Positions 4,883 to 37,197 of a DNA stretch of 37,197 bases are shown here, one piece after another (position 1 is the first letter of the stretch; the number at the start of each line of letters is the position of its first letter). The notes beneath the pieces are model-generated. The model was given only the letters and a program-made list of their open reading frames with translations. It was not told the origin of the DNA and did not search any database. The translations under genes and the position numbers were made by a program. Source of the DNA: Lentisphaerota bacterium. Lineage in GTDB: Bacteria > Verrucomicrobiota > Lentisphaeria > Victivallales > UBA1829. The stretch covers positions 1 through 37,197 of the forward strand of contig SUVR01000019.1 of assembly GCA_015061915.1 (NCBI GenBank), written 5' to 3'.

Positions 4883-5016
4883 GGGGCGGCTCAGGCGCAG
4901 CAGACCGCTGCGCACAACCGCATGAAGGGGCATGGCGCATCATGCGCCATGCCCCTTCATGTGCGGTTGCCGGGGTGTGACCGCCACGCGGTCACGCCCC
5001 GGTGCTGAGCCGCCCC
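4883..5016. repeat. Cloverleaf inverted-repeat element A
   Basis: A closing stem of 12 perfect pairs (4883-4894 with 5005-5016) encloses three hairpins that almost touch. The first is 4895-4913 (7 pairs, 5-base loop). The second is 4915-4969 (7 pairs, 2-base bulge, then 19 pairs to the tip). The third is 4970-5002 (14 positions, one of them T/G, which would pair as G-U in plus-strand RNA). Unpaired junction bases number only three. The right arm lies 5 bases beyond the stop codon of the von Willebrand gene. No T tract follows on the minus strand, so a plain intrinsic terminator is unlikely. See the matching element at 16612-16746. Confidence 0.85.
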
Positions 5017-5021
5017 GCCGC

Positions 5022-6962
5022 TTACTTCTGCGGCAGATCTTCTGCGGCTTTCACGAGGGTGAGGAATTCCGCCCGTTTGCCGTCGGGATCGGAACCGAGG
5101 GCTTTCTGAGCCCGGGCGCGGAGGTCCTTATAATTGGCGTTGCCCTTGTGTTCGCTGTTGCGGAGCAGCAGGCTGAACTCGGTGACGGCAGCCGCCCAGC
5201 GGATGTTATCTGTCGTCTCCGGCAGAGTCTTCAGGTCGAAGGTCAGCAGACGGCTGGGATCTTTTCCTTCCGGCTTCTGATAACGGAGCTTGAAGGTGAG
5301 GATGTCCTCGGATCCGGTGCTTTCCGTTTTCTTCTGATACTTGAGATCATCCACGCTGCCGAGATATTTCTTTTTCACATCGGCGGGGGCATCTGCCATG
5401 ATCAGTTCGTACACTGCGGTGACCTGATGACCGACACCGACTTCGCCGGCATCTTTCGTGTCATCGTTGAAGTCACGGGCGGCGAGTTTCCGCAGTTCGT
5501 ATCCGACCAGCCGGTATGCGGCGACTTTGGCGGGGTTGAACTCGATCTGGAACTTCACGTCTTTGGCGAGGGTGAACATCTTACCGGTCATTTCGTTGGT
5601 CATGACCCGTTTGGCTTCCCGGACGTTATCCAGGTAGAAATAGTTGCCGTTTCCTTTGTTGGCAAGCATTTTCAGTTTGCTGTCCTTGTAGTTCCCGCTG
5701 CCCACACCGAAGGCGCTCAGATAGATGGCGCTCTGCCGTTCTTTTTCCACCATCGTAACCAGTTCGGATTCGCTGCTGACACCCACATTGAAATCGCCAT
5801 CCGTGATCAGGACGATCCGGTTGTTGCCGCCTTTGATGAAGTGTTTATGCGCCAGTTTGTACGCTTCCACGATCCCTGCGCCGCCGGGGGTATAGCCGCC
5901 GGAACAGAGGGAGGAGATTTTTTTCTTGACAGCTTCTTTGTCTGCGCCGCTGCCGCCATCCATGAGGGTACTCACGCCGCCGCCATAGGTCACGAGGCTG
6001 ATCCGGTCATTTTCCCGGAGCTGATCTGCCAGAGTATTCATAGCTTCAATGACCATGGGGAAGACACTGAACATAGAGCCGGAGTTGTCGATGAGGAAAA
6101 CAAAGTTGGAAGGGGGCAGATCTTTTGTTTCCACGTCCTTTGCCTGCACGCCCACCAGCAGCAGTTTGCGGTCCGGGGACCAGGGGGCATCCATGCTTTC
6201 AAAGTTCACATGGAAGTCGGCATCGCCCTGCGGCGCTTTGTAGTCATAGGTAAAATAGTTGAGGAATTCTTCCGTGCGGACCGCATCTTTCGGCGGGAGG
6301 GTATTCTGCTGAAGGAGGAACCGACGCACGTTGGTGTAAGTGGCGGTATCCACATCCGCCCCGAAGGTGGAGAGCGGGGAGACAGTGGTGGCGGTGAAGC
6401 CGTTTTCCGTCAGGGACTTGTATTCCTCGGTGTTGAAGTTGACAGCAGGTGCGGGGATCCGGTCACTGACGCTGTAATATGCGGGGCTGTTCATGACCTT
6501 TCTTTCTTTTCTTTTGACGCCAGTCGCCATCACAGCCCTGCCCATGGCAGGAAGACTGTACTGCATAACAACGGGTTCGGGCGGCAGAGAATGTGCCGAT
6601 GCGCCATCTTCCGCCACAGCGATTTCAGCGAGAGCAACTGTTTTTTCCTGTTTGGATTCAATCGTTTGTACGGATTCCGGTGTATCTTTTGTGAGAGTGA
6701 TACCGGTACGCTGCGTTTCCTGCGTCTGCTCCTGCTGGAACGCAATAACCAGCCCGCAGCAGACAGCCACCGCAGCAGCCGTTGCCCAGACGAAACGCAG
6801 AAAGCGGGGAGCAGATTTTTTCTTTTCCGGCTTTTCTTCCGATTTCACTTTTGCGAAGAAATCTGCCTTGAACTGTTCCGTGGACTTGTAGTCCTGTTGG
6901 GGATTGGTGCGATTTTTCATGGTATCGAGAAGCTCATCAATTTTCGGTTCGTTGTTGTTCAT
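5022..6962 (-). CDS. Membrane-anchored von Willebrand factor A protein, DUF3520 (YfbK-like)
   Basis: A 646-residue protein. Residues 1-54 are charged and cytoplasmic; one transmembrane helix spans about 55-76 (FVWATAAAVAVCCGLVIAF), leaving the rest outside the cytoplasm. A von Willebrand N-terminal domain (about 165-270) is followed by the vWA domain, whose metal site DxSxS is Asp292-Ser294-Ser296, with the TDGDFNVG segment later. The C-terminal DUF3520 domain covers about 455-640. This arrangement matches E. coli YfbK and planctomycete/Bacteroidetes relatives, whose biochemical role is unclear; metal-dependent protein binding is expected. The start overlaps the sigma-factor stop (ATGA), with GGAGG 8 bases upstream, so the two are translated together. 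The short cytoplasmic tail plus helix resembles an anti-sigma factor layout, so it may hold the sigma factor at the membrane (inference). Confidence 0.9.
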   Translation of the reverse strand: MNNNEPKIDELLDTMKNRTNPQQDYKSTEQFKADFFAKVKSEEKPEKKKSAPRFLRFVWATAAAVAVCCGLVIAFQQEQTQETQRTGITLTKDTPESVQTIESKQEKTVALAEIAVAEDGASAHSLPPEPVVMQYSLPAMGRAVMATGVKRKERKVMNSPAYYSVSDRIPAPAVNFNTEEYKSLTENGFTATTVSPLSTFGADVDTATYTNVRRFLLQQNTLPPKDAVRTEEFLNYFTYDYKAPQGDADFHVNFESMDAPWSPDRKLLLVGVQAKDVETKDLPPSNFVFLIDNSGSMFSVFPMVIEAMNTLADQLRENDRISLVTYGGGVSTLMDGGSGADKEAVKKKISSLCSGGYTPGGAGIVEAYKLAHKHFIKGGNNRIVLITDGDFNVGVSSESELVTMVEKERQSAIYLSAFGVGSGNYKDSKLKMLANKGNGNYFYLDNVREAKRVMTNEMTGKMFTLAKDVKFQIEFNPAKVAAYRLVGYELRKLAARDFNDDTKDAGEVGVGHQVTAVYELIMADAPADVKKKYLGSVDDLKYQKKTESTGSEDILTFKLRYQKPEGKDPSRLLTFDLKTLPETTDNIRWAAAVTEFSLLLRNSEHKGNANYKDLRARAQKALGSDPDGKRAEFLTLVKAAEDLPQK

Positions 6963-15013: not shown

Positions 15014-16582
15014 ATGGCAGACGAAAAACGCAATATTTTCGGCGGAAAAGAGGGATTCCATGCAGACGGGACCCGGAACATTTTTAACACGGAAAAACGG
15101 ATCAAACTGGGGATCTGGGGTCTGGGCCGCGGTGGCAGTTTTGTGGCGTGCGCAAAAGATCTGAATATCGATGTGGTCGCCGGATGCGATTTCAGCCCGT
15201 ACATCCGGGAAAAATTCTCAAAACATAATCCGGATGTGTTCGTAACGGACAACGAAGATGAATTCCTGAGCATGGATATCGATGCCGTGCTGGTGGCGAC
15301 ATTCTTCCCCTCCCATGTGGAACACTGCATCAAGGCACTGAACGCCGGAAAACACGTGATGTGCGAAGTCACATCCTTTATGAAGCCTTCGGACGGCGTC
15401 CGCCTGGTCGAAGCCGTGGAAAAGAGCGGAAAAGTTTACAATCTGCTGGAAAATTATCCGTTCGCAAAGAAAAATATGTTTGCCCGGAAGTTGTGGCAGG
15501 ACGGTCTGTTCGGAGAATTTGTCTATGCCGAATATGATTATCACCATGACTGCCGCACGCTCCAGTACACTTATGTGGACAGCACCCCGCTGGAAAACGG
15601 TTGGGAACTGCATAACTGGCGTTCCTGGCTGAACGGTCATTATTACAACACCCACTCCCTCGGTCCCGTTATGCAGATCACCGGTCTGCGCCCCGTGGAA
15701 GTTTCCGCCCCCCCGATTTCCGTGAAACAACCCGGCTGCATCCTGCCGGGAGGTCCCTGTCTTTCCGTAGTAAAGATGGAAAACGGCGGGATCATGCGGA
15801 ACCTGATGGGGGCGTCCAGCCACGACACTCACACCAGACGGATCTGGGGAAGTAAAGGCGCATTTGATTTCTCCGAAGCAGAAGAAAAGGTCTATTTCGG
15901 AGCCACCGGACACGGCAAAGGCTACAAAATCAAAACCGAATGGCCCGAACTGGGCGAACTCGCCGATACCATGGGCCACGGCGGCGGCGACTTCTGGGAA
16001 CTCTATTACTTCGCACGGGAAATCCTCACCGGCGAAAAAGCACCGTGGAATATCTACGCAGCGTGCGATGTGACCCTCGCCGGGATCATGTCCGTCCGCA
16101 GTCAGATGCAGGGCGGGATCCCCGTGGAAGTGCCGGATTTCCGCGATCCCGCAGTCCGGGAAAAATACCGGAACGATGACTTCATACAGGAACATTTCGA
16201 TCCGGAAACTTACCTTTTCCCCGAAGGTCATGATAAATCGATCACCGGCAAGTTCTCCAAAACGATGGCAGATCTCTCCAACGCATGGTGCAGAAACGGC
16301 GTCACCCTCGTCCGTCAGGTGTACGATGGTATGAAGATCTATCCTCTCCTCGCAGACGATGCCGGACGCTTCTCCGTGATCTGTGATGTTCAGCAGCTGA
16401 TCGCCGAAATCGATGATCTGGCAGAAACATACCGCACCGCAAAAGAAATCATCAACGCATACCCGGATTCCGTCGCAGCCGAACAGCTCCGCAGTATGCT
16501 GGAAATCGGCGAAGAAGAAAAAATCCTCTTCCCCGATGAAACCAAACAGGAACTGACCGACTGGCTGAAACAGGTCCGGTAA
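15014..16582 (+). CDS. Gfo/Idh/MocA-family protein, GH109-like
   Basis: A 522-residue protein. Residues 30-150 form a dinucleotide-binding Rossmann fold with GLGRGG (36-41). The lysine of the usual CEKP motif is not present: the position reads CEVTSF (117-122). YNTHSLGP (211-218) and GHGGGDF (321-327) resemble the active-site blocks of GH109 NAD-dependent N-acetylgalactosaminidases, which use bound NAD to eliminate and re-add across the glycosidic bond. Loss of the EKP lysine fits a hydrolase better than a dehydrogenase (inference). An unusual helical extension, about residues 415-522, goes beyond the normal 330-450. No signal peptide or twin-arginine motif is present, unlike many GH109 proteins. 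AAAGGA lies 8-13 bases before the ATG. It is 140 bases downstream of the fucosidase, perhaps with its own promoter, and ends at a strong terminator. Confidence 0.82.
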   Translation: MADEKRNIFGGKEGFHADGTRNIFNTEKRIKLGIWGLGRGGSFVACAKDLNIDVVAGCDFSPYIREKFSKHNPDVFVTDNEDEFLSMDIDAVLVATFFPSHVEHCIKALNAGKHVMCEVTSFMKPSDGVRLVEAVEKSGKVYNLLENYPFAKKNMFARKLWQDGLFGEFVYAEYDYHHDCRTLQYTYVDSTPLENGWELHNWRSWLNGHYYNTHSLGPVMQITGLRPVEVSAPPISVKQPGCILPGGPCLSVVKMENGGIMRNLMGASSHDTHTRRIWGSKGAFDFSEAEEKVYFGATGHGKGYKIKTEWPELGELADTMGHGGGDFWELYYFAREILTGEKAPWNIYAACDVTLAGIMSVRSQMQGGIPVEVPDFRDPAVREKYRNDDFIQEHFDPETYLFPEGHDKSITGKFSKTMADLSNAWCRNGVTLVRQVYDGMKIYPLLADDAGRFSVICDVQQLIAEIDDLAETYRTAKEIINAYPDSVAAEQLRSMLEIGEEEKILFPDETKQELTDWLKQVR

Positions 16583-16623
16583 CCATCAGGGAAAATACGC
16601 ACAGAACAACAGGCGCGGACGCT

Positions 16624-16660
16624 CCCCGTTCAGCGTTGAGCTGAACGGGGGGCTTTTTTT
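16624..16660 (+). terminator. Intrinsic terminator of the Gfo/Idh gene
   Basis: The stem CCCCGTTCAGC/GCTGAACGGGG (16624-16634 with 16640-16650, loop GTTGA) is followed by GGC and seven T residues (16654-16660). It begins 41 bases after the stop of the Gfo/Idh gene. Confidence 0.85.
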
Positions 16661-16690
16661 GCCCCGGCGGCACAGTGCCGCCGCCGGGGC

Positions 16691-16734
16691 AAAAAAAAGC
16701 GCGTCATCCGGGGCGTTCCCGCCCCGGATGACGC
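16691..16734 (-). terminator. Intrinsic terminator of the cation transporter gene
   Basis: A 14-pair GC-rich stem (16701-16714 with 16721-16734) is followed on the minus strand by GC and eight T residues (A run at 16691-16698). It lies 47 bases beyond the stop of the CDF gene. Confidence 0.82.
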
Positions 16735-16781
16735 TGCGTCCGCGCCCGTGTCTTCTGCGCTGATCCCGTCCCGATGCGCTA

Positions 16782-17957
16782 TCAGATAAAGCTCTTGAGG
16801 AACGTGATCTCCAGTTCCAGACCGTCTTTGTAGGCTTTCATCCGTTCCTGTAAAGCGGTACGGATCTCAGCTTCGGTCATGCCGTACCGGTGTGGGATCA
16901 GCAGATGGAAGGAGAGGCTGACCACTTCGCCAGCGGCATTTTTACCCAGACGGAAGTCATAGAGTTTCAGTTCGCTGTCAAATTTTGCCACCTCATTTTC
17001 CATGCGGCTGCGCCAGTAGATCACTTCCGGATTGGACTTGCTGTAAGGATCGCCGTGCAGAAGCAGATGAACGGGGAGCGACTGTGCCACAACAACTTCC
17101 GCATTTTCCAGAATATCGTGTGCGGAATAGCGGTCCCCATCGCAGGAGATTTCGGCGTGTGCCGTCACATAGTAGGAATTTTCCCCGTAATTGTGGATCA
17201 TGATGTCATGCACGCCATCGATCCCGGGACAGGCAAGGATGGTCTCCCGCAGTTTGGTGACCAGTTCCGGATCGGGCGGCTCGCCCAGCAGTTTATTGAC
17301 GGTATCTTTCAGCACCCCTGCCCCCGCCCAGAGGATCAGCAGGGCAACGATGATCCCGGCGCATCCGTCCACGGGAAAATCAGTGAATCGGGAAACAATG
17401 AGGGCTGCGATCACCAGACCGGTGCCGAGACAGTCGCTGAGGCTGTCATAAGCAGCCGCCCGGACCACGTCCGACTTGATCAATTTTGCCACTTTCCGGT
17501 GGAAGAAAAAGAGCCAGCACTTCACAAGAACGGTCGCAGAAAATATGACAATCATCACGGTACTGACATCAAGTTTTTCCGGATGGAACAGGGAGGCGAT
17601 GGAATCTTTCAGGAAGCTGACGCCAAGACCAACGATCAGCAGTGCCACAACCAGCCCCGCCACATACTCCGTACGCCCGTGTCCGAAGGGATGTTCCGCA
17701 TCCGGCGGCTGACTGGAGATGCGGAATCCGACCACCGTAATGATGCCGGATCCTGCATCGGAAAGGTTGTTCACGGCGTCCGCTGCGACGGCGATACTAC
17801 CGGTAAAAACGGCAAGAATGACCTTCACGATCACGAGAAAAATATTACAGATGATCCCCACGATCCCGCTGACGATCCCGCACCGGGTCCGGGTCGCCGG
17901 GGACAGCTCTTTTCCCATGCAGGGAACGGTCCATTTCAATAACAAACTGGTCAACAT
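16782..17957 (-). CDS. Cation diffusion facilitator (CDF) family transporter
   Basis: A 391-residue inner-membrane metal/proton antiporter-like protein. Six transmembrane helices (residues about 25-210) carry the metal-site residues: Asp60 and Asn63/Asp67 (DAVNNLSD) on helix 2, the loop HPFGHGRTEY (89-98) and the helix 5 block YDSLSDCLG. A cytoplasmic dimerisation/metal-sensing domain (about 212-285) follows, and the last 100 residues form a further domain seen in longer MMT1/FieF-type proteins of anaerobes. Zn, Fe or Mn export is typical; the mix of Asp and Asn does not decide the metal. I prefer the ATG at 17957 because AGGAG lies 8 bases upstream; another ATG at 17963 is only two bases from it. 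A promoter at 17984-18011 precedes it. Confidence 0.92.
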   Translation of the reverse strand: MLTSLLLKWTVPCMGKELSPATRTRCGIVSGIVGIICNIFLVIVKVILAVFTGSIAVAADAVNNLSDAGSGIITVVGFRISSQPPDAEHPFGHGRTEYVAGLVVALLIVGLGVSFLKDSIASLFHPEKLDVSTVMIVIFSATVLVKCWLFFFHRKVAKLIKSDVVRAAAYDSLSDCLGTGLVIAALIVSRFTDFPVDGCAGIIVALLILWAGAGVLKDTVNKLLGEPPDPELVTKLRETILACPGIDGVHDIMIHNYGENSYYVTAHAEISCDGDRYSAHDILENAEVVVAQSLPVHLLLHGDPYSKSNPEVIYWRSRMENEVAKFDSELKLYDFRLGKNAAGEVVSLSFHLLIPHRYGMTEAEIRTALQERMKAYKDGLELEITFLKSFI

Positions 17958-17983
17958 TTTCATAACTCCTTTCGCACTTGCAA

Positions 17984-18011
17984 AAGATAGCACAAAACCG
18001 GATTTTTTCAA
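17984..18011 (-). promoter_or_regulatory. Probable promoter of the CDF transporter gene
   Basis: On the minus strand TTGAAA (18011-18006) and TATCTT (17989-17984) are 16 bases apart. The -10 region TGCTATCTTT is identical to that at 12242-12270. The start codon follows 26 bases after the -10 box, so the leader is short. Confidence 0.6.
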
Positions 18012-18072
18012 CACGGAGATGAAAATTCTGTCTTTTTATGTCATTTTTCTCCGTTTTCTCTCAAAAAAGCTC

Positions 18073-27100: not shown

Positions 27101-30100
27101 AAAGTCACCGGCAACGGCGGTGCGGTCTATGCGTCCAAGAGTCTGACGCTGGATACGGTACAGGTCATGGATTCCTACTCCTCCAGCAAGGGTGGCGGTG
27201 TTTACAGTGATGGATACACGCGCGCCGAAAACAGTGTCTTTATCAACAATACCGCCGGAGACTACGGCGGCGGTCTCGGCGGCTACAACAACGACATCCG
27301 GGTACTCAACACCCTGTTCTACGGCAACCGGGCAAAAAACGGTGCTGCGGTCATGAATTGGAGCTGGACTCTGCAATTCATCAACAGCATCTCTACGGAG
27401 AATTATGCAAGCGAAGGAGCTTCGATCCAGAACAATCAGGGGGCGATCCATCTGCTGAACTCCGTGGCGGTGGGCGCTGCGAACGGTTACGATGTCAAGT
27501 TCGACAACGCCTACAACAAAGCGATGCGCTTCTACAACTCCGTTTACGGCAATATCACACAGGGAGTACCGGCAGATGGTTCCGCACTTTACAACTATGT
27601 TGACAGCAACTCCTGTATTGCCACAAAAGCAATGACCTTCGGCGACAACACGATCTATCAGGACTCCAAGGGGTTCTATGCGATCGACATTCTGGATCAG
27701 GGCGCCGCATCCTGGGGCGGCAGGATCTTCTCGGAAGTTCATTTGTCCGATAACATGAAAAATGTCAACAACAACCATAAAATGGTTGGCTATTTCGATG
27801 AAAACGGCTACTTCCGCAATGTTGACGGTCTGCTGGTCGCATTCTCCGGGGCAAACAATAACAATACCTCGACCGTGCCTTATTACAGCAATGATGACGG
27901 CGTCACCTGGTACACAGATACCGCCTGCACCAAAGAGTTTTACGATGGCTACATGGCGGGAACCAATTCAACCACCATCGTCCGGCAGAATATGTTCCTC
28001 ATGACCCGCAACGGCATCGAACAGGTCTTCCCCGAAAAAGGCGCTTTCACATACAGCACCCTGACCGGTCTGACCGATGAGATCTATGCCACCTGGTTCA
28101 CCGACTGGAAGTATGACCGCAACGGTGCCGACCGCACGGCGGAAAAATATCTCGCCATGGGCACCACGGTCCATGACAACACCCTGGACCGCCTGACCGA
28201 TCTGGAAAACAACCTGACCGTCACCTCCGAAGGGACGGCGATCGATGCCGCCGACGGCGTGATCACCCTGAACGAAGCACTGCTGGTGGCGGGCAAGCTC
28301 GGCACGGCAGAGATCACCTTCGGGGACAATGTTTCCGAATTTGTCATTAATCAGCAAATCACGATCAATTACGATCTGACCATCACTGCGGCGGAAGGAC
28401 AGAACATTACGTTCCGTACTGCCGCACAGGGCGTGGCAGATGACGGCACTTACGATTCCGCTGCAGCCAATATCAACCGGATCTTCCGCCTGTTCCACGA
28501 TGGCTCCCTCACCTTGAACAACCTGACTCTTTCCGGTGGGAAAGTTAACTACGGTGCGATCATCTACGGTGAAAATGCCTCCAGCGTCACGATCAACAAC
28601 AGTACGCTGGAAAACGGCTACGCCACCAGTGAAGGCGGTGCCATCTACCTGACACAGGCATCCAGTCTCCAGATCAACGATTCTGTGTTCCGCAACAACC
28701 ATGCGGACTCCGGCGGCGCCATCGCCCTCCGGGCGGATAGAGATATTCTCATTGAAAACACGCTCTTTGAAAAGAACACTGCCTCCACCGGCGGCGCCAT
28801 CAGGCTGGCACAGAGCAACAGCGGCACCTATATCTACCGCCCCCACATGATCGTGAATGACTCCGTCTTCCGCGAAAACGGCAAGAGTAACTGGGGCTCC
28901 AAAGGCGGCGGTGCCATCCGGGTAACTGACGGCACTCTGGCAGAACTCCACCGCTGCTTCCTGGTCGGGAACACGGTTACAGCCGGCAGTTGGTACGGCA
29001 CAAACGGCGGTGCTCTCAGCGCAACCGGCAATGCATCGATCCTGCTGGAATCCAGCACCGTCATCAACAGCCAGAACGGGGCGATCTCCTCGGACGGCGG
29101 GAAAGTCACGGTCATCAACAGTACGATCATGAACAACGGCGGCAGAGCTTTCTTCCAGGGTGGTGCGGACCAGATCACCGTGGTCAACTCCATTGTGGCG
29201 CTGAACGGACATGATTTCTGTCAGCGCAACCACGCCGGAGCAGATTACAAGTTCAATCTGAAGAATGTCATCACCACCGGTACACTCGCCAGCGCCGGTA
29301 TGGTCTTCGACACGGATCAGGTCACGGTCCTTTCCGCTGCCGACTTCAAGGCGCTGCTGGAAGATATCTGCCTCGATGAAGCGGGCAAAGTGATCCTGAA
29401 CCCGATCCTCGGCAACACATACACCTTCGATCCGGCGAGCATCGCTGCTCAGAACGGCGTACTGGTCGGCAAGATCGGCAATGCGTACTACTACGCAAAG
29501 AACGGTCTCTGGTACAGCGTGGCGGACGGCTCCGTCTATCAGATCGACGACGGCACCGGAACCATGGTGGATGTGGCATATACCAACGATGCCGCAACCA
29601 ACTACGGTCTCGGCACAGCGGAAGGCACTGCCGTTTACACCTTCGATCAGAACGGCAACGAACGTTTCATGCTCAACGGCAAACTGACCGTCGGCGTGTC
29701 CAACGCACGGCAGGAATCGTTGATCGTGACCGATGCCACCGATGAAAACAACCCCTACAACAACAAGATCACCCTCCGGGAAGCGATCGACCTCGCCAAC
29801 CGGACCGCTGACGCACAGGAAGTCACCTTCGACAGCAACGTGTTCAAGGACACCGCCACCGAATATGTGATCGACCTGGAATCCACGCTGAAGATCACGG
29901 ATGCCGTTACCATCAGCAACACCACCGGCGCAAAGATCGTTCTGGACGGCGGCAACACCGTCACCATTGATGCAACGACCGGCGCTGTCACATACGGCGA
30001 AGACGGCGTCCGTATCATGGACATCGCAGCCAATGCGGCGACCACGATCGACGGACTCACCTTCCGCAACGGCTTCGGTTCCAGTGATCTGCGTACCACG

Positions 30101-33100
30101 GCAAAAGGTCAGACCTACGGCGGCGGCGGTGCCATTCTCACCGCATCTGCTCTGACCGTGAAGAACTCCACCTTTGAATTCAACTACTATAAGAATCAGG
30201 CGGATAATCCCTACTCCTCCGGCGGCGGCGCCATCTTTGCCAATGCGGATCTGACCGTCGAAAACAGCACGTTCAGTCAGAACGGCGTCAGTCTGAAGAG
30301 CATTTACGCCTATAAGGGCGGCAGTGCTATCTTTGCTCAGACCGGCAGCTTCACCCTCACCGGGTCCACCATCAAAGACCACACCACCGATCCGGCAGTT
30401 TATGCGTACAACACCACCGGATTGAACATTGATCAGACCACCTTCACCAACAACAAACGCGGAGCCCTCTCCCTTTCCTACACCAGCGGTGCGGATCAGA
30501 AGATCTCCAACTCCATCTTCACCGGAAACGCCCACACCAACGGTGCTTCCGGCGCCATCAACGCCCAAGTCTCCTCCGGAACGCTGACCATCAGCAACAC
30601 CACATTCGGCGGGACCGGGGACGGCGAAGGCAACCGGAACTCCGGCGGCAACGGCGGCGGCGCAGTTACTCTCAACAGCGGAAACAAAGCTCAGATCGTA
30701 GTCACGGACAGCAAGTTTATCAACAACTATCAGAAAGACGGTTACGGCGGCGGTGCGGCGTACATTCTCGGCAATGTGACTTTCCGGAACACCCTTTTCC
30801 AGGGCAACAGCACCGGAGCCACCGGCGGCGCCATCAGCGTCATGAACGGAAATCCCGTTATTGAAAACTGTACCTTTGTCAGCAACTCGGCGAAGGACGG
30901 CGGTGCCATCAACATCAACTCCGTCTATGGCGTGGCAAATACGGTCAACATTGTCAACAGCACCTTCCTGAACAACTCCGCCACCGGTTCCGGGAACACG
31001 ATCATGGTTCTGGATCCCTCCAGCACAAACGAAGCAGGCCGGAAGCCCATGACGGTGAACCTGATCAACTCCACCATCCTTTCGGATGATGCGGACAGCG
31101 CTGCGATCCAGTTGGGGTACAACAATGTGACTCTGAATATGCTGAACAGCATTGTTGCCTCCGCAACCGCCCTCAACGCCGTTGCCGGAAGTACCGTCAA
31201 TGCTCATTACAACGTGACGGGCGCGGTTTCTCTGGCATCCGGTACGACCCTGAACGGCACTGCCCTCACCGCTGATACGACCGAACTTGGCGGAACCAAC
31301 AAAACGGCAGAGGCGGCGGACATCTTCAAGTCCACCACCCTCACCGCGCAGAACACGCTGGAGATCAGCAAGGAAGGCGCAGCAACCATCGCCGGTACCC
31401 TGGTCGGTCAGAAGGATGGTGCGTTCTACTATCGGGACGGCAGCACATGGAAGAAAGTCGGCGGAACCGATGCGGATAATCTGGCGTTCGATGCTGCCGA
31501 TACCGTCACCTACGGGCTCACGGACGGCACGATCCTCACCCTCGCCCAGAACGGAGTCAGCCGTGTCCTCACGCTCACTGCATTCAACGCCGGCGCTCAC
31601 GCACTGGAACCGACGCCCCTCTCCAGCGTGGTCAACTCCCTCGAAGACTCCATCAACTACTTCGATGACAAGATCACTCTCCGGGAAGCGATCGCCAACT
31701 TCGGCAGCGTCTCCTTCTCCGATCAGGTCGATTGGAGTCTGACCGATAAGACCATCGTCCTGACGATGGGACAGCTCTACCATTACGGTAATTTCTCGCT
31801 CAACGGCGCCCTCTCCTTCAATGGCACTGATCAGGGCAGAGTTACCGTCAAGGTCCCTGTCACTTACGCAGAAGCACAGGCAGACAGTACCCTTACGATC
31901 AGCAATCACCGGGCATTCCAGTTCGCTGGTGGCGATGTAAAATGGAGTCATGTTCAGTTGAGCAACATCATCGTGAAAGGCGGTTATGCCGATAACGGCG
32001 GTGCGATCCAATGTTCACCGAATCTCACCCTCACCAATGTAACGGTCGCTGACTCAAAAGGCTGGGCGGGCGGCGGAATTGCTGCCAGTCATAATCTCGT
32101 TCTGCAGAACAGTTATATCGTCAACAACTTTGCCACTGCCTCCGGCGGTGGAATCTATCTTACGAAAGGTTCATCCAGTAGTTACGGTCATCCGAAGATT
32201 GAAAACTCCGTTATTGCCGGAAACACTTCCGGCTCTGCAGGAGCAGGACTCTATATTTCGTGCAATTCATCCGGCATTACCACGCAGATCATCAATACGA
32301 CAATCGCCGGTAACACGGGAAAATCTGCATTCTATCAGGGAAATCAGTCAAGCACCTTGCAGGTGATCAACTCCATTATCGCAGGGAACACGGTTACTGA
32401 TACAGATATTGTCATTGCACCGGGTTCCGGTAAAACGGTAACGGCATCCCTGATCAGTTCTGTTTATGGCACGATCAGCCATACCTCAACAACGCTCACG
32501 GAAAGCGCGAACCTCTCCGGCGTTACTTACGCGGATGTCTTCGGCACCAATACCCTGACTGAAAAGGCGGGAGGAACTTACGAACTGGCTGTCGTTCCCA
32601 CCGGAAAAGCAGCGGTCACCGGGACTCTGGTCGCCTCGGTCGTTACCGGAAATGCACTTGGCGGAACGGTCAACAAGGATTACTACTACCTTGACACCGC
32701 CACCGGCAAGTGGATGCTGAACGGTGCCGATGCCGGTTATACCTATGATCCCACCGCCGCCAACTATGGGCTGGGCGTGAAAAATGCCGTGATCCTCGGT
32801 ACCGCCCTGAACCGGGATGCCGAGGGCAACTTTGTCTCCCGTCTGGATGCGGCTCCTTACAGCACCTTCACTGCCGGGGCGTATGCCCTCACGGCGGAAA
32901 CTACCGGAACTGTCGTAAAAGTCGGTACCGATAACGGCTTCTTCAACCCGTTTGATGGCGAGATCACCTTCCGCGATGCTGCCACTTATGCGGGCGTTGG
33001 CGCCCTCCCCAGCGAAGTCACCTTCGATGACGCCCTCACGGAAGTGGTCCTGACCGATACCCTCACCATCAGCAAGGATCTGACCATCACGGATGACAAT

Positions 33101-36100
33101 ATGAAGATCTCCGGCGCTGCGCTCGCAGTCGCAGAAAGCGTCACCCTCACCGTCAGCTCCGGCAGCAAGTTCGAGATCACGGAAGCCGTCAACAACGGCA
33201 CGATCGACAACAAGGGCGCTCTCACTCTGGGAACTCTCTCCGGCACCGGTGCTTTTGTCAACAACGGTACTGCCACTGTCACCGGAAACCTGACGCAGGC
33301 GAATGTGACCAACAACCAGTCCATGACCGTCAGCGGCAACTATGAGACCACGGACAACACGGACAACGCCACCGGCGCGGAACTCACCGTCTCCGGCACC
33401 CTCACCACGAAAGATCTGGGCAACGAAGGCACCCTCAAAGCAACGGGCAACATCGCGGTAACGGATCATCTGGAAAATACCGGGACCCTCACCGCTTCGG
33501 CGGCATTCTCTGCGGCGACCACCGACAACTCCGGTTCTCTTGCGGTCGGCGGCGACTTCTCCGGCGGTGCGGTCAACAACACCGGAAGCATGACCCTCTC
33601 CGGCACAAACAACACCGCCACCGATGCGACCAAACTGGGTAACGTGACCTACGACGGCGCAACCGCCCAGCAGGTCATCGCCGGTACATACGCCGCCCTG
33701 ATCCTCTCCGGTGCAGGCGCAAAGACCGCCACCGGAAACGTCACGGCAAACAGCGTCAAGAACGAATCTGAAACCACGGTCAACGGCAACCTTTCCTCCA
33801 TCGGAACGGTTGATAACGATGCAAATCTGACTGTCAACGGCAACTACTCCGCCGACACCACGGATAACAGCTCCGACCTCAAGGTCACCGGCACTTACAC
33901 TGCCGACACCACCACCAACAGCGGCACGCTGGATGTGAACGGCAACTTTGCGGGCGGCACGGTGGATAACACCGGCAGCATGACCCTTGCGGGCGAAACA
34001 AACTCCGGTACCGGTACGCTGGGCAATGTGACTTACGACGGCGCAGATCAGACTGTTATCACCGGAACCTACGGCAACCTGACCATCAACTCCACCGGCA
34101 AGGCGTCCGCTACGGGCAATGTCGTTGCCAACGGCGACCTCGTCAACACCGCAGAGCTGACGGTTGACGGCAATGTTGCAGCGGCAAGTATCACCACCTC
34201 CGGCGATACAGAAGTCACCGGCAATCTGACGGCAGACAGCGGCGATATTGAGAGCACGGCGGCTCTGACCGTCGGCGGCAACGTCGTTGGTGGCAACATC
34301 ACCACCTCCGGCGAAACGGAAGTCACCGGCAGCATCATCGCCACCGGCGACATCGAAAGCACGGGCGCTCTCACGGTCGGCGGCAGTGTGGAAGCGGACA
34401 ACAACATCACCACTTCCGGTGTCACGAAGATCACCAACAACCTCACCGCAAACAGCGGCGACATCAAGAGTACAAATGAACTCACGGTCGGCGGCGATGT
34501 GAAAGCGGAAGATATCACCACTTCCGGCAAAACGGAAGTTACCGGCGACATCCTCGCAACCGAGGATCTTGAAAGCGCTGCAGCTCTGACCGTCGGCGGA
34601 AATGCGAAAGCGTACGGCGACATCGCCATCGGCGCCGAAACCGAAATCTCCGGAGATATGACAGCCGGTGACATGATCATTAACTGGACTGATGGCAACT
34701 TGAGTGTCGGCGGTTCGGCGGAAGCTCAGCAGCTTGTCAATTACGGCGAAATGGAAGTCACCGGCGATGTCACGCTCAACAGTGATATCGTTGCTTACGC
34801 AAAACTGACCGCTTACGGTTCGATGAAAGTCGGTGGCGACGTGGAAGTGGAAAGTGTTGCAAACTTCGATGCGTTGGAAATTGCAGGTGACCTGACCGCT
34901 ACTGATAACATTTACAACGCGAAAAAATTGACCGTCGGCGGCGATTACTCCGCTGCCTCCACGAACAACGACGAGACCCTGACCGTCGGCGGCAATTTCG
35001 CTGGTGGCACGGTGACCAATACCGGTGCGATGACGCTCTCCGGCGCATCCAACACCGCCAATGCGGGCAGCACCCTGGGCGATGTGACCTATGACGGCAC
35101 CACCGATCAGGAAGTGATCGCGGGCACGTACGAAGATCTGGTCATCTCCACCACCGGTAAGGCGACCGCCAACGGCGACATCTCTGCGGTAACGGTCAAG
35201 AATGATGCTGAAACGGCGATCACGGGCAATCTGACCGCCACGGGCAACATCACCAGCAACGGCGACATGGATGTGACCGGCAACCTGACCACCACGGGCG
35301 ACCTCGCGAGTACGGCTGCCCTCACGGTCGGCGGCAATGCCTCTGCAAACAATGCGACCCTCTCCGGCGACACGGCGATCACGGGCGACCTGACTGCAAC
35401 GGGCGATCTCGCAAGCACGGCTGCCCTCACGGTCGGCGGCAATGCCTCTGCAAACAATGCGACCCTCTCCGGCGACACGGCGATCACGGGCGACCTGATC
35501 GCCACCGGCACGGTCGATTCCGATGCGGCTCTGACCGTCGGCGGCAACCTCACCGCAGACACCGCAGACAACAGCTCCGCTCTCACGGTCGGCGGCACCT
35601 TCACCGCCAATACCACCAACAACAGCGGCACGCTGGATGCGGAAGGTGATCTGAATGCGGGCGCACTCGCCAACAGCGGAAGTATCTCCGTCGCAGGCGC
35701 TTTTGCCACAACCAGTGCCGATCTCGGCGCGGTGGAATACGACGGCACGGCAGCACAGAACGTGGTCGAAGGTACGTACTCCGATCTGTCTCTGACCGGC
35801 GGCGACAAGTCCCTTGCGGGCGCTGTCACCGTGACCGACAGCCTGACAGCCGATGCCAATATCGACACCGCCGGACAGGATCTGACCATCAGCGGCGACG
35901 TTGCCGGAACCGGTACGATTTCCACCACAACTGACTCCGGAACCGTCACTTACGACGGCACGGCGGATCAGAACATCCTCGCGGGCGCGTACAATAATCT
36001 TGCACTCGCCAACGGCACCAAGACCTTGAACAGCGCCAATACCACCACGGTCAACGACACCTTTACCGCCAACGGTACCACGCTCCAGAGCGATGCGGCA

Positions 36101-37197
36101 GATGTCCTTGCATCTCTTACGGTTAAGGACGCGGGCAACGACAATGCGCCCAGCAGCGCCATCGCCGGAACCACCTTCAACGGTATTGCCCTGAACAATA
36201 CCGGCAGCGCAGACGGTTATCTCTACGTGAACGCCGATACCAACAATGCAGATGATGTCACCACCGGCGTCTATCTCGTTGGTAATGTGTTTGTTGCGGC
36301 GGAAGGAATCATCTACGGCGATACCCTCGGCGAAGTCTATATCACCGTCACCAACGGCAACGGCGATGTGATCAGCGAAGGTACGGCGGATGACCTCGGC
36401 TGGACTTGGGCGGTGGGCAACGATGCCATCGAAAACGCCACAACCGGAACAGCTTACGAACTTATCTCCAAGGAAGGTTTCAAGTTCCGCTTCCACGGCG
36501 ATGTGGACGTGGTCATCGGCAAACGCGCCATCACGGTCAAGGCGGATGATCTGGAAATCGATACCGGTGACGATCCGGTGTTCACTTACACCTACGTCGG
36601 TGAACTCGTTGGAACCGATACCTTTACGGGCGAACTTGCATCCGAGGGCGACGGCTCCAAGCCGGGCGACTTCGAGATCACGCAGGGTACGCTCACCCTC
36701 GGCGACAATTACGACATCACCTTCATCGGCGGCGTGCTGACGGTGGAAGGCGGCGGTCAGGATGCCCACCAGTTCCCGAACTACAACAATCCGGGCAACT
36801 TTGCGGGCGTGTATGACGCTCCGGTCCACAGCACGATCCACAGCTACGATCATCATGAGTCCGTTCCCACGCTGGAACATCAGAACGATCGCAGCATCGG
36901 ATTCCTGTTCAGCGTCAGCAACAAGCAGCTCGGCGATGCCACCGGCGCCTTCGGCGACAACGCTCCCCGGGGCGCAAACGTGGATATCCACGCTCACACG
37001 CTCTCCGATCTGCTGAAGTCTTACGATAAATCCGAACAGATCATCGCATCCCCGGCGAATGAAATTCAGGACGCTCAAGACGACATGAAGGATCTGCACG
37101 ACTTCTCCAATAATCCGTTCGGCATCCTGCCCGATGATGAGGATCTGCACACCCGCGCCTACGACGAAAGCATCGACTTCACCGTCATCGGCGAGGA
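18158..37197 (+). CDS. Giant LEPR-XLL/DUF4347 beta-helix adhesin-like protein, 3' end outside the window
   Basis: At least 6,346 codons in one frame from ATG 18158 (AAGGTGG site upstream, strong promoter) to the right edge. Order by residue: LEPR-XLL-type motif KLEDRVLFEAGA (12-23); Ala/Asp-rich linker (24-105); DUF4347 (about 109-265); three CSLREA-type modules (starting near 290, 760, 1228); MBG-like segment (about 2067-2240); six more modules (near 2261, 2872, 3370, 3872, 4507, 4937); Thr/Gly/Asn-rich solenoid with YDG repeats (about 5000-6010); second MBG-like segment (about 6115-6200); a polar tail still open at the edge. Modules are built of GGAI and FxxN repeats like chlamydial Pmp proteins, expected to fold as a right-handed beta-helix. 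No cleavable signal peptide is seen; LEPR-XLL is thought to mark exported giant proteins. Likely a surface adhesin or matrix protein. Continuity was judged by translating many points, not by full computation. Confidence 0.9.
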   Translation, partial: MSQKQNKVEIFKLEDRVLFEAGAVIQAAEAAAADQANNDAAAADADATGDTDSTDNESAEAALAQIPGVDSLDAVGDSIPAAAGGDDDAESPDAVAFVDAPVASSETSERILVVLNSSVADADSIVNDLGDNVEVLRLEAGTDALDTINDYLDEHADTKYSAIHLVSHGSEGYITLNGEKIDSTTINPADWKAIGEHLTDDADILVYGCDTAKSDEGKALVQTIANLTGADVAASIDSTGANGDWDLEYRSGLIEAATLVPESYRYDLAATTITVNTLTDVVDAADGVTSLREAITEANTNGGEYTIVFDQTLAKNADTDGNAENGNDSYVIKLDATLGTLNLSLEGLDLTIDGSIGTDRVTIDGGNSFSIKASDGTITNSKTGMQLFNITNSSVLLQNFQLQHAYSAGLGGALYVGTGGNVTVSDVLFYGNYAKGGGSIALSGGTLLVENSIFDYNGATYAGSGNGGGGGGFYSLSGTATFRNTYFTRNSSDGGGWLNFQASAMLVAGSASLTVENSTIFGNYQGAISLLSGAGKKVFINSTIIGNGTDGNDSAIFSPGGNYTLLNTIVANNWKDFGDNGNSGTRLMQGVITTNVHLKSSTAFSGDYTVITKEQLLTMLDSACISTDGKNTILLNKDGQIALNGSGAAAGGGVLVAQLADGTYVVAKDGYWHNLNNTRYQIDGADVAFNAADSANGYGLGATATVFDTDANGNSRLAGAQYGVFSAGAVAADSIQQETVQSLVVNTLTSGTNAYDHKTSFEEAYAYAQTLEGDQTISFSSTLQPNTDTGYIIALSQKLTHNKSTLNLTIDGSIGTKQVTFDGGDSIKFMTVSGATLTLQDLTVRNFYDGYGAITVSSGNLTLNNVAMEGNTASHWGGAVKVDGTSTLIVDNSSFRDNDGSGWGGAIYVEGSGTGTQFTISNSLFDKNTATYGGAISIWTGATGTISGSVFTGNITDDASKASVLYSSQPVSISNSSFSGNTGGYVISMMGNAAATIENSTFVNNKNGVLSAKNATIINSTIVGNTGTAVQLSAGGNMLLLNTLIGNNEKDFGAAAASTAHLYYTLTTAVKDTTVTLDGVGHKEIDSNAFMRFIPFDKYAADGSLLLEADGTLAIMPIGDAANAGTLIGKIGSTWYYVSNGKWYSTGSTEAYADFNKEAAGYGLGDTATLYTTGANKDANGNVTRIYDNGLYSVGAYALEAGVSSGDIPSLVVTTEQDVVNANDGLISLREAFDLLNTHKTFFGETTITFDASLSGKVITLSSKLGAVTTGMTINGDIDGDGNADITINGGGKYRFFDLSTADVTLTLNGLILQNGYSEMAAKTAGGVINLTAAGVTVNLTNSTVTGSKNTAHAAVFYISAAGTTVNMTDSALNNNTSFWSAPVLFSNKANTTVTITRSEFNNNKSSDAGNATEDGGVIYLGSGAHNSKLTITGSTFDGNSLAKSPGAALSVISSQNSVITISNSTFSNNSAGSSGGAIYMLNATGTTLDIENSTFTGNKANGTTVKTDNSGTGGGAIYVRNSGAVTIEDSTFTGNSSKACGGAILVRGGSLTLTDTDFTNNTAQYGGAISNYDTVASTITITGGTYSGNSAPKNSGTFHINSGANATVKMTGITVENSSSDSLGGAIGVYGGSLTLTDAIFTNNSSNTNGGAIGVSSGTLDISGSTFQDNSAANNGGAIYISSGSTGTVDIRNSTFTNNSTTTNQSVANTLVGGGALYIGTGTVNISDSTFTGNHADGANGEYAGGGAVGLFAGTMNLTGTNTFTGNYAVEGHGGAIFNQKGTLNISGTNTFTGNKAGYGGTATDYRGNGGAIFLDGNATAILTVSGNTLFEENNARNWGGAIALYANSISYIDSATFRNNTTSRSSGSAFYVAGNLTITNSTFTGNYINGTTDVNGLSGHSVLDVSANGRLFIVNSTFLNNSNAAETLPTTYDVYNRGGTANAVYLINSIYDHGVDTKTKGYGNVKAVAGTNIDATAKTDGNQTYFLPTGEDTVIGGKPVTVSGKTLTYNGTNIAISNLTADQQTLLAGVIGKDQLGADRALGTTPYYSVGAVNGILLAPENVTLKWTIGDYTYNGADQTVTVQVVNAENDTIVHDTITVTLKYNDGTSDLDAMLNAGSYTVTVDETALLAALGYNQTLVAAADALTKTVTVKQKTLNVTADNKEMFKDGVLPELTYTVKDGDLLDGDDAGFTGELKSTADGTVEGDFAIEAGTLTVGNTNYIMNYTAGTITVVDANGVLDPSRLIVDTASDDPDSGNTLREALEYAADFGGDLTITFAADTFAADTKLTLNSELAISLNLEGTLTIDGSYVDTDGNTGRITIDNTGKTFRILSYTDTDTTSAAGLTINNLEILAGSTTSSMTGMGIYSRNVTLTLDNFRLANAVSKYGDGAGINHSGGDVSITDSEFYGNGHKNGNGYNANGGAIYLGSVGKLNINNTLFEANCIENKSGSTHGGAIYLSSTTVVTINDSQFISNYTNSSGGAIYGGSGSVLNISNTLFENNVAGASGGALYTMKGYVNVSDSTFVENKAGTGGAISTWYSFNSSNSVFRDNYAYGTGSTLVKDSAGKELFTITHSDSGHGGAVHLHSPSGDKSNIYNTTFYGNSAAGRGGALFIKSIGYGHSIDIVNTTIAGNTAGVASGGIHYWAQTADHILIANSVILGNKAGTADYDIAFAQNAHNTNNYIYSVASTIGVVKHEGFTSGYVFDRASVQAPITDKYGSTIGEIWTVTEQADGTFAQTLTTRDTLPVADLKKSVFGTETPTLASDGKSVVMMASKDYVLNGVNTAWTADGIQPLYQDANGDWYYVSGTKYTGTPTVIDKDINGAARPKDINGTNYYVKGSSTLVQEYSSLVVDTLDDVINPFDFKTSLREAVAFANAGGGGTITFSTDVDWSATDKTITLDAKDAEGNFLGQIAITAAITIDGSLMRGTFDYGVVTIKVPVTYGESVLDTTLTASNFRIFNITATTTLKNMILQGGKVTGNGGAVYASKSLTLDTVQVMDSYSSSKGGGVYSDGYTRAENSVFINNTAGDYGGGLGGYNNDIRVLNTLFYGNRAKNGAAVMNWSWTLQFINSISTENYASEGASIQNNQGAIHLLNSVAVGAANGYDVKFDNAYNKAMRFYNSVYGNITQGVPADGSALYNYVDSNSCIATKAMTFGDNTIYQDSKGFYAIDILDQGAASWGGRIFSEVHLSDNMKNVNNNHKMVGYFDENGYFRNVDGLLVAFSGANNNNTSTVPYYSNDDGVTWYTDTACTKEFYDGYMAGTNSTTIVRQNMFLMTRNGIEQVFPEKGAFTYSTLTGLTDEIYATWFTDWKYDRNGADRTAEKYLAMGTTVHDNTLDRLTDLENNLTVTSEGTAIDAADGVITLNEALLVAGKLGTAEITFGDNVSEFVINQQITINYDLTITAAEGQNITFRTAAQGVADDGTYDSAAANINRIFRLFHDGSLTLNNLTLSGGKVNYGAIIYGENASSVTINNSTLENGYATSEGGAIYLTQASSLQINDSVFRNNHADSGGAIALRADRDILIENTLFEKNTASTGGAIRLAQSNSGTYIYRPHMIVNDSVFRENGKSNWGSKGGGAIRVTDGTLAELHRCFLVGNTVTAGSWYGTNGGALSATGNASILLESSTVINSQNGAISSDGGKVTVINSTIMNNGGRAFFQGGADQITVVNSIVALNGHDFCQRNHAGADYKFNLKNVITTGTLASAGMVFDTDQVTVLSAADFKALLEDICLDEAGKVILNPILGNTYTFDPASIAAQNGVLVGKIGNAYYYAKNGLWYSVADGSVYQIDDGTGTMVDVAYTNDAATNYGLGTAEGTAVYTFDQNGNERFMLNGKLTVGVSNARQESLIVTDATDENNPYNNKITLREAIDLANRTADAQEVTFDSNVFKDTATEYVIDLESTLKITDAVTISNTTGAKIVLDGGNTVTIDATTGAVTYGEDGVRIMDIAANAATTIDGLTFRNGFGSSDLRTTAKGQTYGGGGAILTASALTVKNSTFEFNYYKNQADNPYSSGGGAIFANADLTVENSTFSQNGVSLKSIYAYKGGSAIFAQTGSFTLTGSTIKDHTTDPAVYAYNTTGLNIDQTTFTNNKRGALSLSYTSGADQKISNSIFTGNAHTNGASGAINAQVSSGTLTISNTTFGGTGDGEGNRNSGGNGGGAVTLNSGNKAQIVVTDSKFINNYQKDGYGGGAAYILGNVTFRNTLFQGNSTGATGGAISVMNGNPVIENCTFVSNSAKDGGAININSVYGVANTVNIVNSTFLNNSATGSGNTIMVLDPSSTNEAGRKPMTVNLINSTILSDDADSAAIQLGYNNVTLNMLNSIVASATALNAVAGSTVNAHYNVTGAVSLASGTTLNGTALTADTTELGGTNKTAEAADIFKSTTLTAQNTLEISKEGAATIAGTLVGQKDGAFYYRDGSTWKKVGGTDADNLAFDAADTVTYGLTDGTILTLAQNGVSRVLTLTAFNAGAHALEPTPLSSVVNSLEDSINYFDDKITLREAIANFGSVSFSDQVDWSLTDKTIVLTMGQLYHYGNFSLNGALSFNGTDQGRVTVKVPVTYAEAQADSTLTISNHRAFQFAGGDVKWSHVQLSNIIVKGGYADNGGAIQCSPNLTLTNVTVADSKGWAGGGIAASHNLVLQNSYIVNNFATASGGGIYLTKGSSSSYGHPKIENSVIAGNTSGSAGAGLYISCNSSGITTQIINTTIAGNTGKSAFYQGNQSSTLQVINSIIAGNTVTDTDIVIAPGSGKTVTASLISSVYGTISHTSTTLTESANLSGVTYADVFGTNTLTEKAGGTYELAVVPTGKAAVTGTLVASVVTGNALGGTVNKDYYYLDTATGKWMLNGADAGYTYDPTAANYGLGVKNAVILGTALNRDAEGNFVSRLDAAPYSTFTAGAYALTAETTGTVVKVGTDNGFFNPFDGEITFRDAATYAGVGALPSEVTFDDALTEVVLTDTLTISKDLTITDDNMKISGAALAVAESVTLTVSSGSKFEITEAVNNGTIDNKGALTLGTLSGTGAFVNNGTATVTGNLTQANVTNNQSMTVSGNYETTDNTDNATGAELTVSGTLTTKDLGNEGTLKATGNIAVTDHLENTGTLTASAAFSAATTDNSGSLAVGGDFSGGAVNNTGSMTLSGTNNTATDATKLGNVTYDGATAQQVIAGTYAALILSGAGAKTATGNVTANSVKNESETTVNGNLSSIGTVDNDANLTVNGNYSADTTDNSSDLKVTGTYTADTTTNSGTLDVNGNFAGGTVDNTGSMTLAGETNSGTGTLGNVTYDGADQTVITGTYGNLTINSTGKASATGNVVANGDLVNTAELTVDGNVAAASITTSGDTEVTGNLTADSGDIESTAALTVGGNVVGGNITTSGETEVTGSIIATGDIESTGALTVGGSVEADNNITTSGVTKITNNLTANSGDIKSTNELTVGGDVKAEDITTSGKTEVTGDILATEDLESAAALTVGGNAKAYGDIAIGAETEISGDMTAGDMIINWTDGNLSVGGSAEAQQLVNYGEMEVTGDVTLNSDIVAYAKLTAYGSMKVGGDVEVESVANFDALEIAGDLTATDNIYNAKKLTVGGDYSAASTNNDETLTVGGNFAGGTVTNTGAMTLSGASNTANAGSTLGDVTYDGTTDQEVIAGTYEDLVISTTGKATANGDISAVTVKNDAETAITGNLTATGNITSNGDMDVTGNLTTTGDLASTAALTVGGNASANNATLSGDTAITGDLTATGDLASTAALTVGGNASANNATLSGDTAITGDLIATGTVDSDAALTVGGNLTADTADNSSALTVGGTFTANTTNNSGTLDAEGDLNAGALANSGSISVAGAFATTSADLGAVEYDGTAAQNVVEGTYSDLSLTGGDKSLAGAVTVTDSLTADANIDTAGQDLTISGDVAGTGTISTTTDSGTVTYDGTADQNILAGAYNNLALANGTKTLNSANTTTVNDTFTANGTTLQSDAADVLASLTVKDAGNDNAPSSAIAGTTFNGIALNNTGSADGYLYVNADTNNADDVTTGVYLVGNVFVAAEGIIYGDTLGEVYITVTNGNGDVISEGTADDLGWTWAVGNDAIENATTGTAYELISKEGFKFRFHGDVDVVIGKRAITVKADDLEIDTGDDPVFTYTYVGELVGTDTFTGELASEGDGSKPGDFEITQGTLTLGDNYDITFIGGVLTVEGGGQDAHQFPNYNNPGNFAGVYDAPVHSTIHSYDHHESVPTLEHQNDRSIGFLFSVSNKQLGDATGAFGDNAPRGANVDIHAHTLSDLLKSYDKSEQIIASPANEIQDAQDDMKDLHDFSNNPFGILPDDEDLHTRAYDESIDFTVIGE
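18482..18955 (+). other. DUF4347 domain with His/Cys pair
   Basis: Residues about 109-265 of the giant protein. Strand ILVVLNSS, helix and strand VEVLRL lead to HLVSHGSEG (His168), then a 41-residue gap to ILVYGCDTA (Cys209). The hydrophobic-His-Gly and hydrophobic-Cys spacing is the layout of clan CD cysteine peptidases (caspase, gingipain, C80 autoprocessing domains). DUF4347 is an established family in giant bacterial surface proteins; peptidase activity is my inference. The domain ends before the first CSLREA module. Confidence 0.75.
18989..24340 (+). repeat. CSLREA modules 1-3 with Pmp-like GGAI/FxxN beta-helix repeats
   Basis: Protein-level repeats inside the giant gene. Module openers are TSLREAITEAN (residue 290), TSFEEAYAYAQ (760) and ISLREAFDLLN (1228), each preceded by a TLTD/TEQD-type strand and followed by a strand, VTIDGG-like turn and a ladder of GGA(I/L/V) and S(T/L)F-x-x-N motifs. 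Between 22560 and 23700 the ladder is densest, with GGAI units every 20-40 residues. Modules 1 and 2 end in a junction with YGLG (near 20255 and 21650) before the next opener. Confidence 0.8.
24356..24880 (+). other. MBG-like immunoglobulin-type segment in the giant protein
   Basis: Residues about 2067-2240: WTIGDYTYNGADQTV, then a strand-rich stretch to TLNVTADNKEMFKDGVLP, ELTYTV and GTLTVGNTNYIMNY. Pattern and spacing match MBG domains of large adhesins. It separates module 3 from module 4, perhaps as a rigid spacer. Confidence 0.65.
24890..33100 (+). repeat. CSLREA modules 4-9 with Pmp-like repeats
   Basis: Openers are NTLREALEYAA (residue 2261), TSLREAVAFAN (2872), ITLNEALLVAG (3370), ITLREAIDLAN (3872), ITLREAIANFG (4507) and ITFRDAATYAG (4937). 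Most intervals are 430-635 residues. Most modules close with a junction of form YYxxxGxWY ... YGLG ... G(A/V) followed by a VVDTL/VTDAT strand and the next opener. The first cysteine of the canonical CSLREA is replaced by Thr, Ile or Lys-Thr in every copy. Confidence 0.8.
33640..36000 (+). repeat. YDG-type and TVGGN solenoid repeats in the giant protein
   Basis: Five units of the form VTYDGxxxQxVIAGTYxxL begin near 33649, 34034, 35089, 35738 and 35948. Between them run 30-35-residue repeats with TSGxTEVTGNLTATGD and ALTVGGN cores, most regular at 34150-35650. Composition is Thr, Gly, Asn, Ala and Asp. This is likely a second beta-solenoid, distinct from the GGAI ladder. Confidence 0.75.
35312..35498 (+). 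repeat. Recent 105-base tandem duplication
   Basis: Bases 35312-35393 and 35417-35498 are identical over 82 positions at a 105-base (35-codon) offset, keeping frame. The bases between have diverged slightly from the block just upstream, so the repeat array has expanded recently, probably by slippage or unequal recombination. Confidence 0.85.
36490..36755 (+). other. Second MBG-like segment near the C-terminus of the giant protein
   Basis: Residues about 6112-6199: RAITVKADDLEIDTGDDP, FTYTYVGELVGTDTFTGEL and GTLTLGDNYDITFIGG show the strand pattern of MBG domains. It is followed by a different, polar tail (DAHQFPNYNNPGN...) rich in His, Asp and Asn that runs to the window edge. Confidence 0.65.

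Follow-up and report, generated by a model that had tools for sequence, protein, structure and literature searches.

Nested three-armed palindromes at gene ends in one genus of gut Lentisphaeria: putative transcription boundaries that seem to be paired at the DNA level

Several kinds of palindromic DNA resemble, in one respect or another, the elements described here. ERIC / RU-1, CREE/NEMIS and RUP are palindromic, intergenic, multicopy MITE-like repeats of about 100-170 bp, and their copies have a consensus sequence. In attC sites and parvovirus-type terminal hairpins, function is read from the folded DNA strand and not from the sequence; an attC site forms one hairpin in which some bases are extrahelical, and the parvovirus ends are T-shaped. 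The reported lengths of RU-1 and RU-2 are 127 bp and 168 bp, respectively (PMC2759123). REP and BIME repeats are multicopy intergenic palindromes that are found mostly downstream of genes, often between convergent genes, and are limited to related species (PMC3733652, PMC1525189). Bidirectional intrinsic terminators, which lie between convergent genes, have a hairpin that is followed by a U tract in both directions, and their stems show compensatory evolution (PMC5381666). Template switching has been described as a source of perfect stems and compensatory changes (PMC8794818). We found no description in the literature of an intergenic repeat family built as a cloverleaf, a nested palindrome or three hairpins, which is weak evidence of novelty, as the coverage of subscription journals was partial. 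Bacterial intergenic repeats are usually found and defined by sequence, so a family to be recognized mainly by its fold would escape such searches.

The window, i.e. the whole stretch of DNA that was analyzed, is an entire contig (C23; 37,197 nucleotides) of a gut Lentisphaeria MAG (G000), which comprises 2.49 Mb in 31 contigs. Relatives of one flanking gene were found in gut MAGs labelled Lentisphaerae or Lentisphaeria, many of them from sheep, yak, buffalo and deer. Two nested palindromes, elements A and B, are present in the window. Their parts and neighboring genes are as follows.

4883-4894, + strand: element A, outer stem, 5′ half (GGGGCGGCTCAG)
4895-4913, + strand: element A, arm 1
4915-4969, + strand: element A, arm 2 (middle)
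4970-5002, + strand: element A, arm 3
5005-5016, + strand: element A, outer stem, 3′ half
5022-6962, - strand: gene with its stop codon 5 nt from element A, in a co-directional context
15014-16582, + strand: GFO/IDH/MocA oxidoreductase gene upstream of element B, stop codon 29 nt ahead of the element
16612-16622, + strand: element B, outer stem, 5′ half (GGCGCGGACGC), bearing the junction-proximal GCRCRG box
16623-16651, + strand: element B, arm 1 (29 nt); with the T tract after it, the putative intrinsic terminator of the + strand gene
16652-16700, + strand: element B, arm 2 (middle, 49 nt), with the T tract pairing with the A tract at its base
16654-16660, + strand: T tract of seven T, the U tract of the putative + strand terminator
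16691-16698, - strand: A tract of eight A, the U tract of the putative - strand terminator
16701-16734, - strand: element B, arm 3 (34 nt); together with the A tract, which is a T run on the - strand, the putative intrinsic terminator of the - strand gene
16736-16746, + strand: element B, outer stem, 3′ half
16782-18014, - strand: convergent gene of the cation efflux family, stop codon 35 nt from element B

An earlier note on this DNA had described element B as an outer stem of 11 bp enclosing three hairpins of 29, 49 and 34 nt. We confirmed this layout and added only one unpaired T, at 16735. For the + strand, the RNA fold has an energy of -128 kcal/mol (z = -13.6); the - strand reaches -137 kcal/mol (z = -14.0), and DNA parameters give -80 kcal/mol (z = -15.6). 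None of the shuffled sequences reached an equal folding energy. On the + strand, the stop codon is followed by 29 nt, the outer stem, arm 1 and seven T in this order, and the - strand mirrors this layout, with arm 3 followed by eight T. Element A (4883-5016; z = -14.1) was said to share the architecture of B, and it is indeed three-armed and built on the same plan. It lies 5 nt past a stop codon on the - strand and has neither a T nor an A tract, which rules out an ordinary intrinsic terminator. ARAGORN detected no tRNA genes in the window. The window also contains two very long - strand ORFs, at 27968-32011 (1347 aa) and 32486-37150 (1554 aa).

We surveyed 1.04 Mb (42%) of the same genome, read in stretches, with an unbiased scan that required an outer seed of at least 7 bp, an energy below -0.62 kcal/nt and a length of at least 80 nt, and accepted any number of branches. 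Thirty dense nested palindromes were found, and all 30 had exactly three arms. Two rows of the scan showed six and two arms, owing to a greedy choice of a larger interval around element A and around the L135 element; taken by themselves, both elements are three-armed. Stricter scans agreed with this one on the set of elements. The same scan returned no element in dinucleotide-shuffled sequence, and a chance origin of the three-armed palindromes was therefore rejected. Large plain hairpins and two-arm or four-arm palindromes of like energy density were absent from the 1.04 Mb sample. Extrapolation from the 42% gives about 70 copies per genome. The elements are 120-189 bp long (median 152, n = 30), their outer stems measure 9-35 bp, and 104 of the 120 junction strands have no or one unpaired base. 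The earlier note had allowed that the window might hold the only two copies, or that arm number might vary at random; neither proved to be the case. Its impression of a fixed size of about 135 bases did not hold over the whole set, and the middle arm, said to be the longest, is so in 23 of the 30 elements only. Its central suggestion, selection on shape, fared much better: together with the empty shuffled control and the compensatory double changes between orthologues given below, the constant number of arms strongly supports selection on, or active maintenance of, the three-armed shape.

The elements are concentrated at gene ends, as judged from crude gene calls based on simple ORFs and codon usage. 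Twenty-five of the 30 start within 40 nt past a stop codon. Convergent gene pairs flank 19 of the elements and co-directional pairs the other 11; no element was found in a divergent pair. Among 643 neighboring gene pairs taken as background, 85 (13%) were convergent, 468 co-directional and 90 divergent, so that the enrichment of elements in convergent pairs is highly significant (Fisher test, P = 5e-11). About a fifth of the convergent junctions in the sample (19/85) bear an element. In being multicopy, intergenic, situated at gene 3′ ends (25/30 within 40 nt) and biased to convergent pairs (19/30), the elements resemble REP and BIME repeats. However, REPs are 20-40 bp long and conserved in sequence, whereas our elements are 120-189 bp long, divergent in sequence and three-armed; REPs are tagged by GTAG or CGTC, and none of the 30 elements is.

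The T and A tracts follow the gene context. Tracts of at least five T and five A were both present in 18 of the 19 convergent elements compared with six of the 11 co-directional ones (P = 0.016), and strict two-way terminators made up nine of the 19 convergent elements and none of the 11 co-directional ones (P = 0.011). In a second layout (e.g. L008, L010 and L021), the inner hairpin of one arm is preceded by an A tract and followed by a T tract. The reading as a two-way terminator, which the earlier note had proposed from the T/A runs of element B, fits B and most of the elements between convergent genes. Intrinsic termination alone does not explain the tract-less elements, which comprise five of the 11 co-directional elements, A included, and one of the 19 convergent ones. 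Nor does termination, for which a plain hairpin would suffice, explain the constant three arms. Known bidirectional terminators consist of one hairpin, whereas these elements hold two putative terminators and a joining arm inside an outer stem. At L026:17999-18337, an FMN riboswitch is located 80 bp downstream of a co-directional cloverleaf element, as if the element parted the gene end from the next riboswitch leader.

Most pairs of elements could not be aligned with one another, in agreement with the earlier statement that A and B are unrelated in sequence. This statement needs qualification, as a short box is shared and a few pairs are paralogous. The best pairs scored 121, 81, 74 and 59, compared with a top score of 36 in a reversed-sequence null. 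A weak GCRCRG motif was found in the outer stem beside the junction (7.8 bits, against 5.4-6.0 in shuffled stems), and in most elements it lies 0-2 nt from the junction. The pair L025:8365-8528 and L141:5146-5300 is alike from end to end in opposite orientation, with dissimilar flanks, and element B is similar to a relative on contig C28. Some members of the family, at the least, thus descend from a common ancestor and were dispersed, probably long ago. No near-identical copies were found among the 30 elements. Several elements, e.g. those of L008, L026, L033, L036, L122 and L135, have one hairpin core in common, GCCGGAGC...GCTCCGGC, which forms arm 1 in some and arm 3 in others, as if the arms were interchangeable modules. 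Compared with ERIC / RU-1, CREE/NEMIS and RUP, these elements share only a fold and a short box, and lack target duplications.

We also compared the pairs in the arms with those of ordinary terminators. G-U pairs account for 20 of 1301 arm pairs in the elements (1.5%), and for 94 of 1439 (6.5%) and 50 of 493 (10%) in two sets of ordinary terminators from the same genome; 4% was reported for ancestral pairs of bidirectional terminators in B. cereus. Outside the innermost seven pairs, the frequencies are 1.6% in the elements and 13.8% in ordinary terminators (P = 2e-16). Co-directional elements, for which transcription is expected on one strand only, are equally poor in G-U pairs (6/452). Selection on RNA alone would tolerate G-U pairs, whereas maintenance on two strands or at the DNA level, or template-switch repair, would not. 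The depletion therefore indicates that pairing is kept at the DNA level.

In the one other species of the genus that was examined (G001), 213 kb, which include contigs chosen for holding orthologues, contained five elements, all of them three-armed. No elements of like strength and layout were found in 330 kb drawn from five other genera of the family and from further families of the order, in 208 kb of Lentisphaeria relatives or in 565 kb mostly of Clostridia. Searches with the sequence of element B against 40 relatives, and with that of the L025 element against the family, gave short or no matches beyond the own genome. As seen so far, the element family is confined to one genus. Between G000 and G001, the elements at serS, PPDK and cmk have kept their place and their three arms. 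Among the 148 shared pairs of these three orthologues, which are paired in both species by definition, 138 are unchanged, eight have changed on both sides and two on one side. When the pairs of G000 were laid on the aligned letters of G001, a further 17 were broken and 15 gapped, many of them in the PPDK element, which has an indel in its middle arm. In sister genera, serS and PPDK have a single hairpin or a simple terminator at their 3′ ends in place of a cloverleaf; the serS ends of L193 (G013) and L192 (G007) are single long hairpins of about 18-20 bp.

Three contigs of G001 (L150, L258 and L261) end inside orthologous elements, L234 ends within about 30 bp of elements at both ends, and the contig of L238 stops 27 bp short of one. 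The palindromes seem to break short-read assembly, and these contig ends imply that fragmented short-read MAGs probably under-count and under-report the elements. An assembly artefact was rejected as their origin, as two species that were assembled separately have them at matching gene ends and differ by compensatory changes.

We lean towards the interpretation that the elements are gene-end transcription boundaries, made of nested three-armed palindromes with Watson-Crick pairing at the DNA level, which would terminate or insulate transcription. Each element has an outer stem, similar to terminal inverted repeats, around exactly three hairpins, and these form a nearly perfect four-way junction, mostly with no more than one unpaired base on each strand. 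Between convergent genes, arm 1 and the T tract would halt one gene, whereas on the opposite strand arm 3 and the A tract would halt the opposing one; in the middle arm, the two U tracts pair with each other. In the second layout, a single arm may serve alone as a two-way terminator. What keeps the pairing at the DNA level might be selection, acting on an extruded or two-strand form; alternatively, it might be repair of one stem arm from the other by template switching. In both cases, the sequence could drift while the shape stays. We infer that this maintenance reflects a use of the DNA shape. Most likely, the elements work partly like REP and BIME repeats without being members of the REP family.

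It is possible, but unlikely, that termination is a by-product, and that the elements work through DNA topology or protein binding, like the gyrase sites of BIME/REP repeats: an extruded cruciform whose shape and GCRCRG box are read by a DNA-binding protein, with supercoils absorbed or anchored between convergent genes. Pairing that is Watson-Crick only, even where one transcribed strand is expected, would fit such a site, as would the scarcity of unpaired junction bases, the closeness of the box to the junction (0-2 nt for the most part), the preference for convergent pairs and the existence of elements without U tracts; for REPs, both a location between convergent genes and the binding of gyrase have been reported (PMC1525189). 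However, the T/A tracts follow the convergent context, which points to transcription. An RNA function is far harder to reconcile with the data. Their location downstream of stop codons and the very stable RNA fold of both strands might suggest a 3′-UTR stabiliser or a small RNA selected as RNA, but G-U pairs, which are harmless in RNA, are depleted, and in the B-type layout a transcript that stops at the first U tract would lack the 3′ half of the outer stem. At gathering level, no Rfam family matched any of 12 elements tested (from the window, L026, L141, L025, L008, L122, L191 and L217). We regard such a function as barely credible.

Like MITEs, the elements have terminal inverted repeats, namely their outer stems of 9-35 bp with the shared GCRCRG box, and the elements, multicopy in a single genus, with paralogs alike from end to end but not beyond (L025:8365-8528 and L141:5146-5300), might be miniature non-autonomous mobile elements, MITE- or REP-like, that were inserted at gene 3′ ends and have since diverged. 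This origin is distinctly doubtful: there are no GTAG/CGTC tags, no near-identical copies among the 30 and no target-site duplications at the elements, where flank words are no longer than chance. G000 and G001 share positions where these could be read through, and no empty site was seen; in sister genera, whose divergence is too great for a clean empty site, neither serS nor PPDK has an element. Many REPs are linked to RAYT, whereas our elements have no dedicated RAYT. A search for the Y1 domain detected many copies in genomes of other genera, a single truncated copy in the own genome and none in G001, which is 72% complete. As the Y1 family shows no link to the genus, mobilisation by RAYT/HUH was rejected. 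Past dispersal of the elements is likely and present-day mobility unlikely. Template switching between hairpin arms during replication, which might perfect and enlarge terminator hairpins whose shape is itself unused, would account for the perfect Watson-Crick stems, the double changes and the depletion of G-U pairs, as this process is described to yield such stems and changes (PMC8794818). But it does not predict exactly three arms in 30 of 30 elements, the absence of large one-, two- and four-arm palindromes from the sample, the closing outer stem or the shared box, and as a full explanation it seems very improbable.

Beyond the interpretation as transcription boundaries, we tentatively raise the possibility of a DNA site coded by shape. 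In this case, the folded four-way junction, with its outer stem, three arms and GCRCRG box and about 70 copies per genome, would itself be what is conserved as a signal, to be recognized by a protein or through topology, and nearly all bases would be free to drift. In being read from folded DNA, the elements would resemble attC sites and parvovirus ends, from which they differ in their three-armed four-way junction. They provide a natural test case for whether DNA shape alone can be a selected signal, and for telling apart template switching and selection as the cause of perfect long stems.
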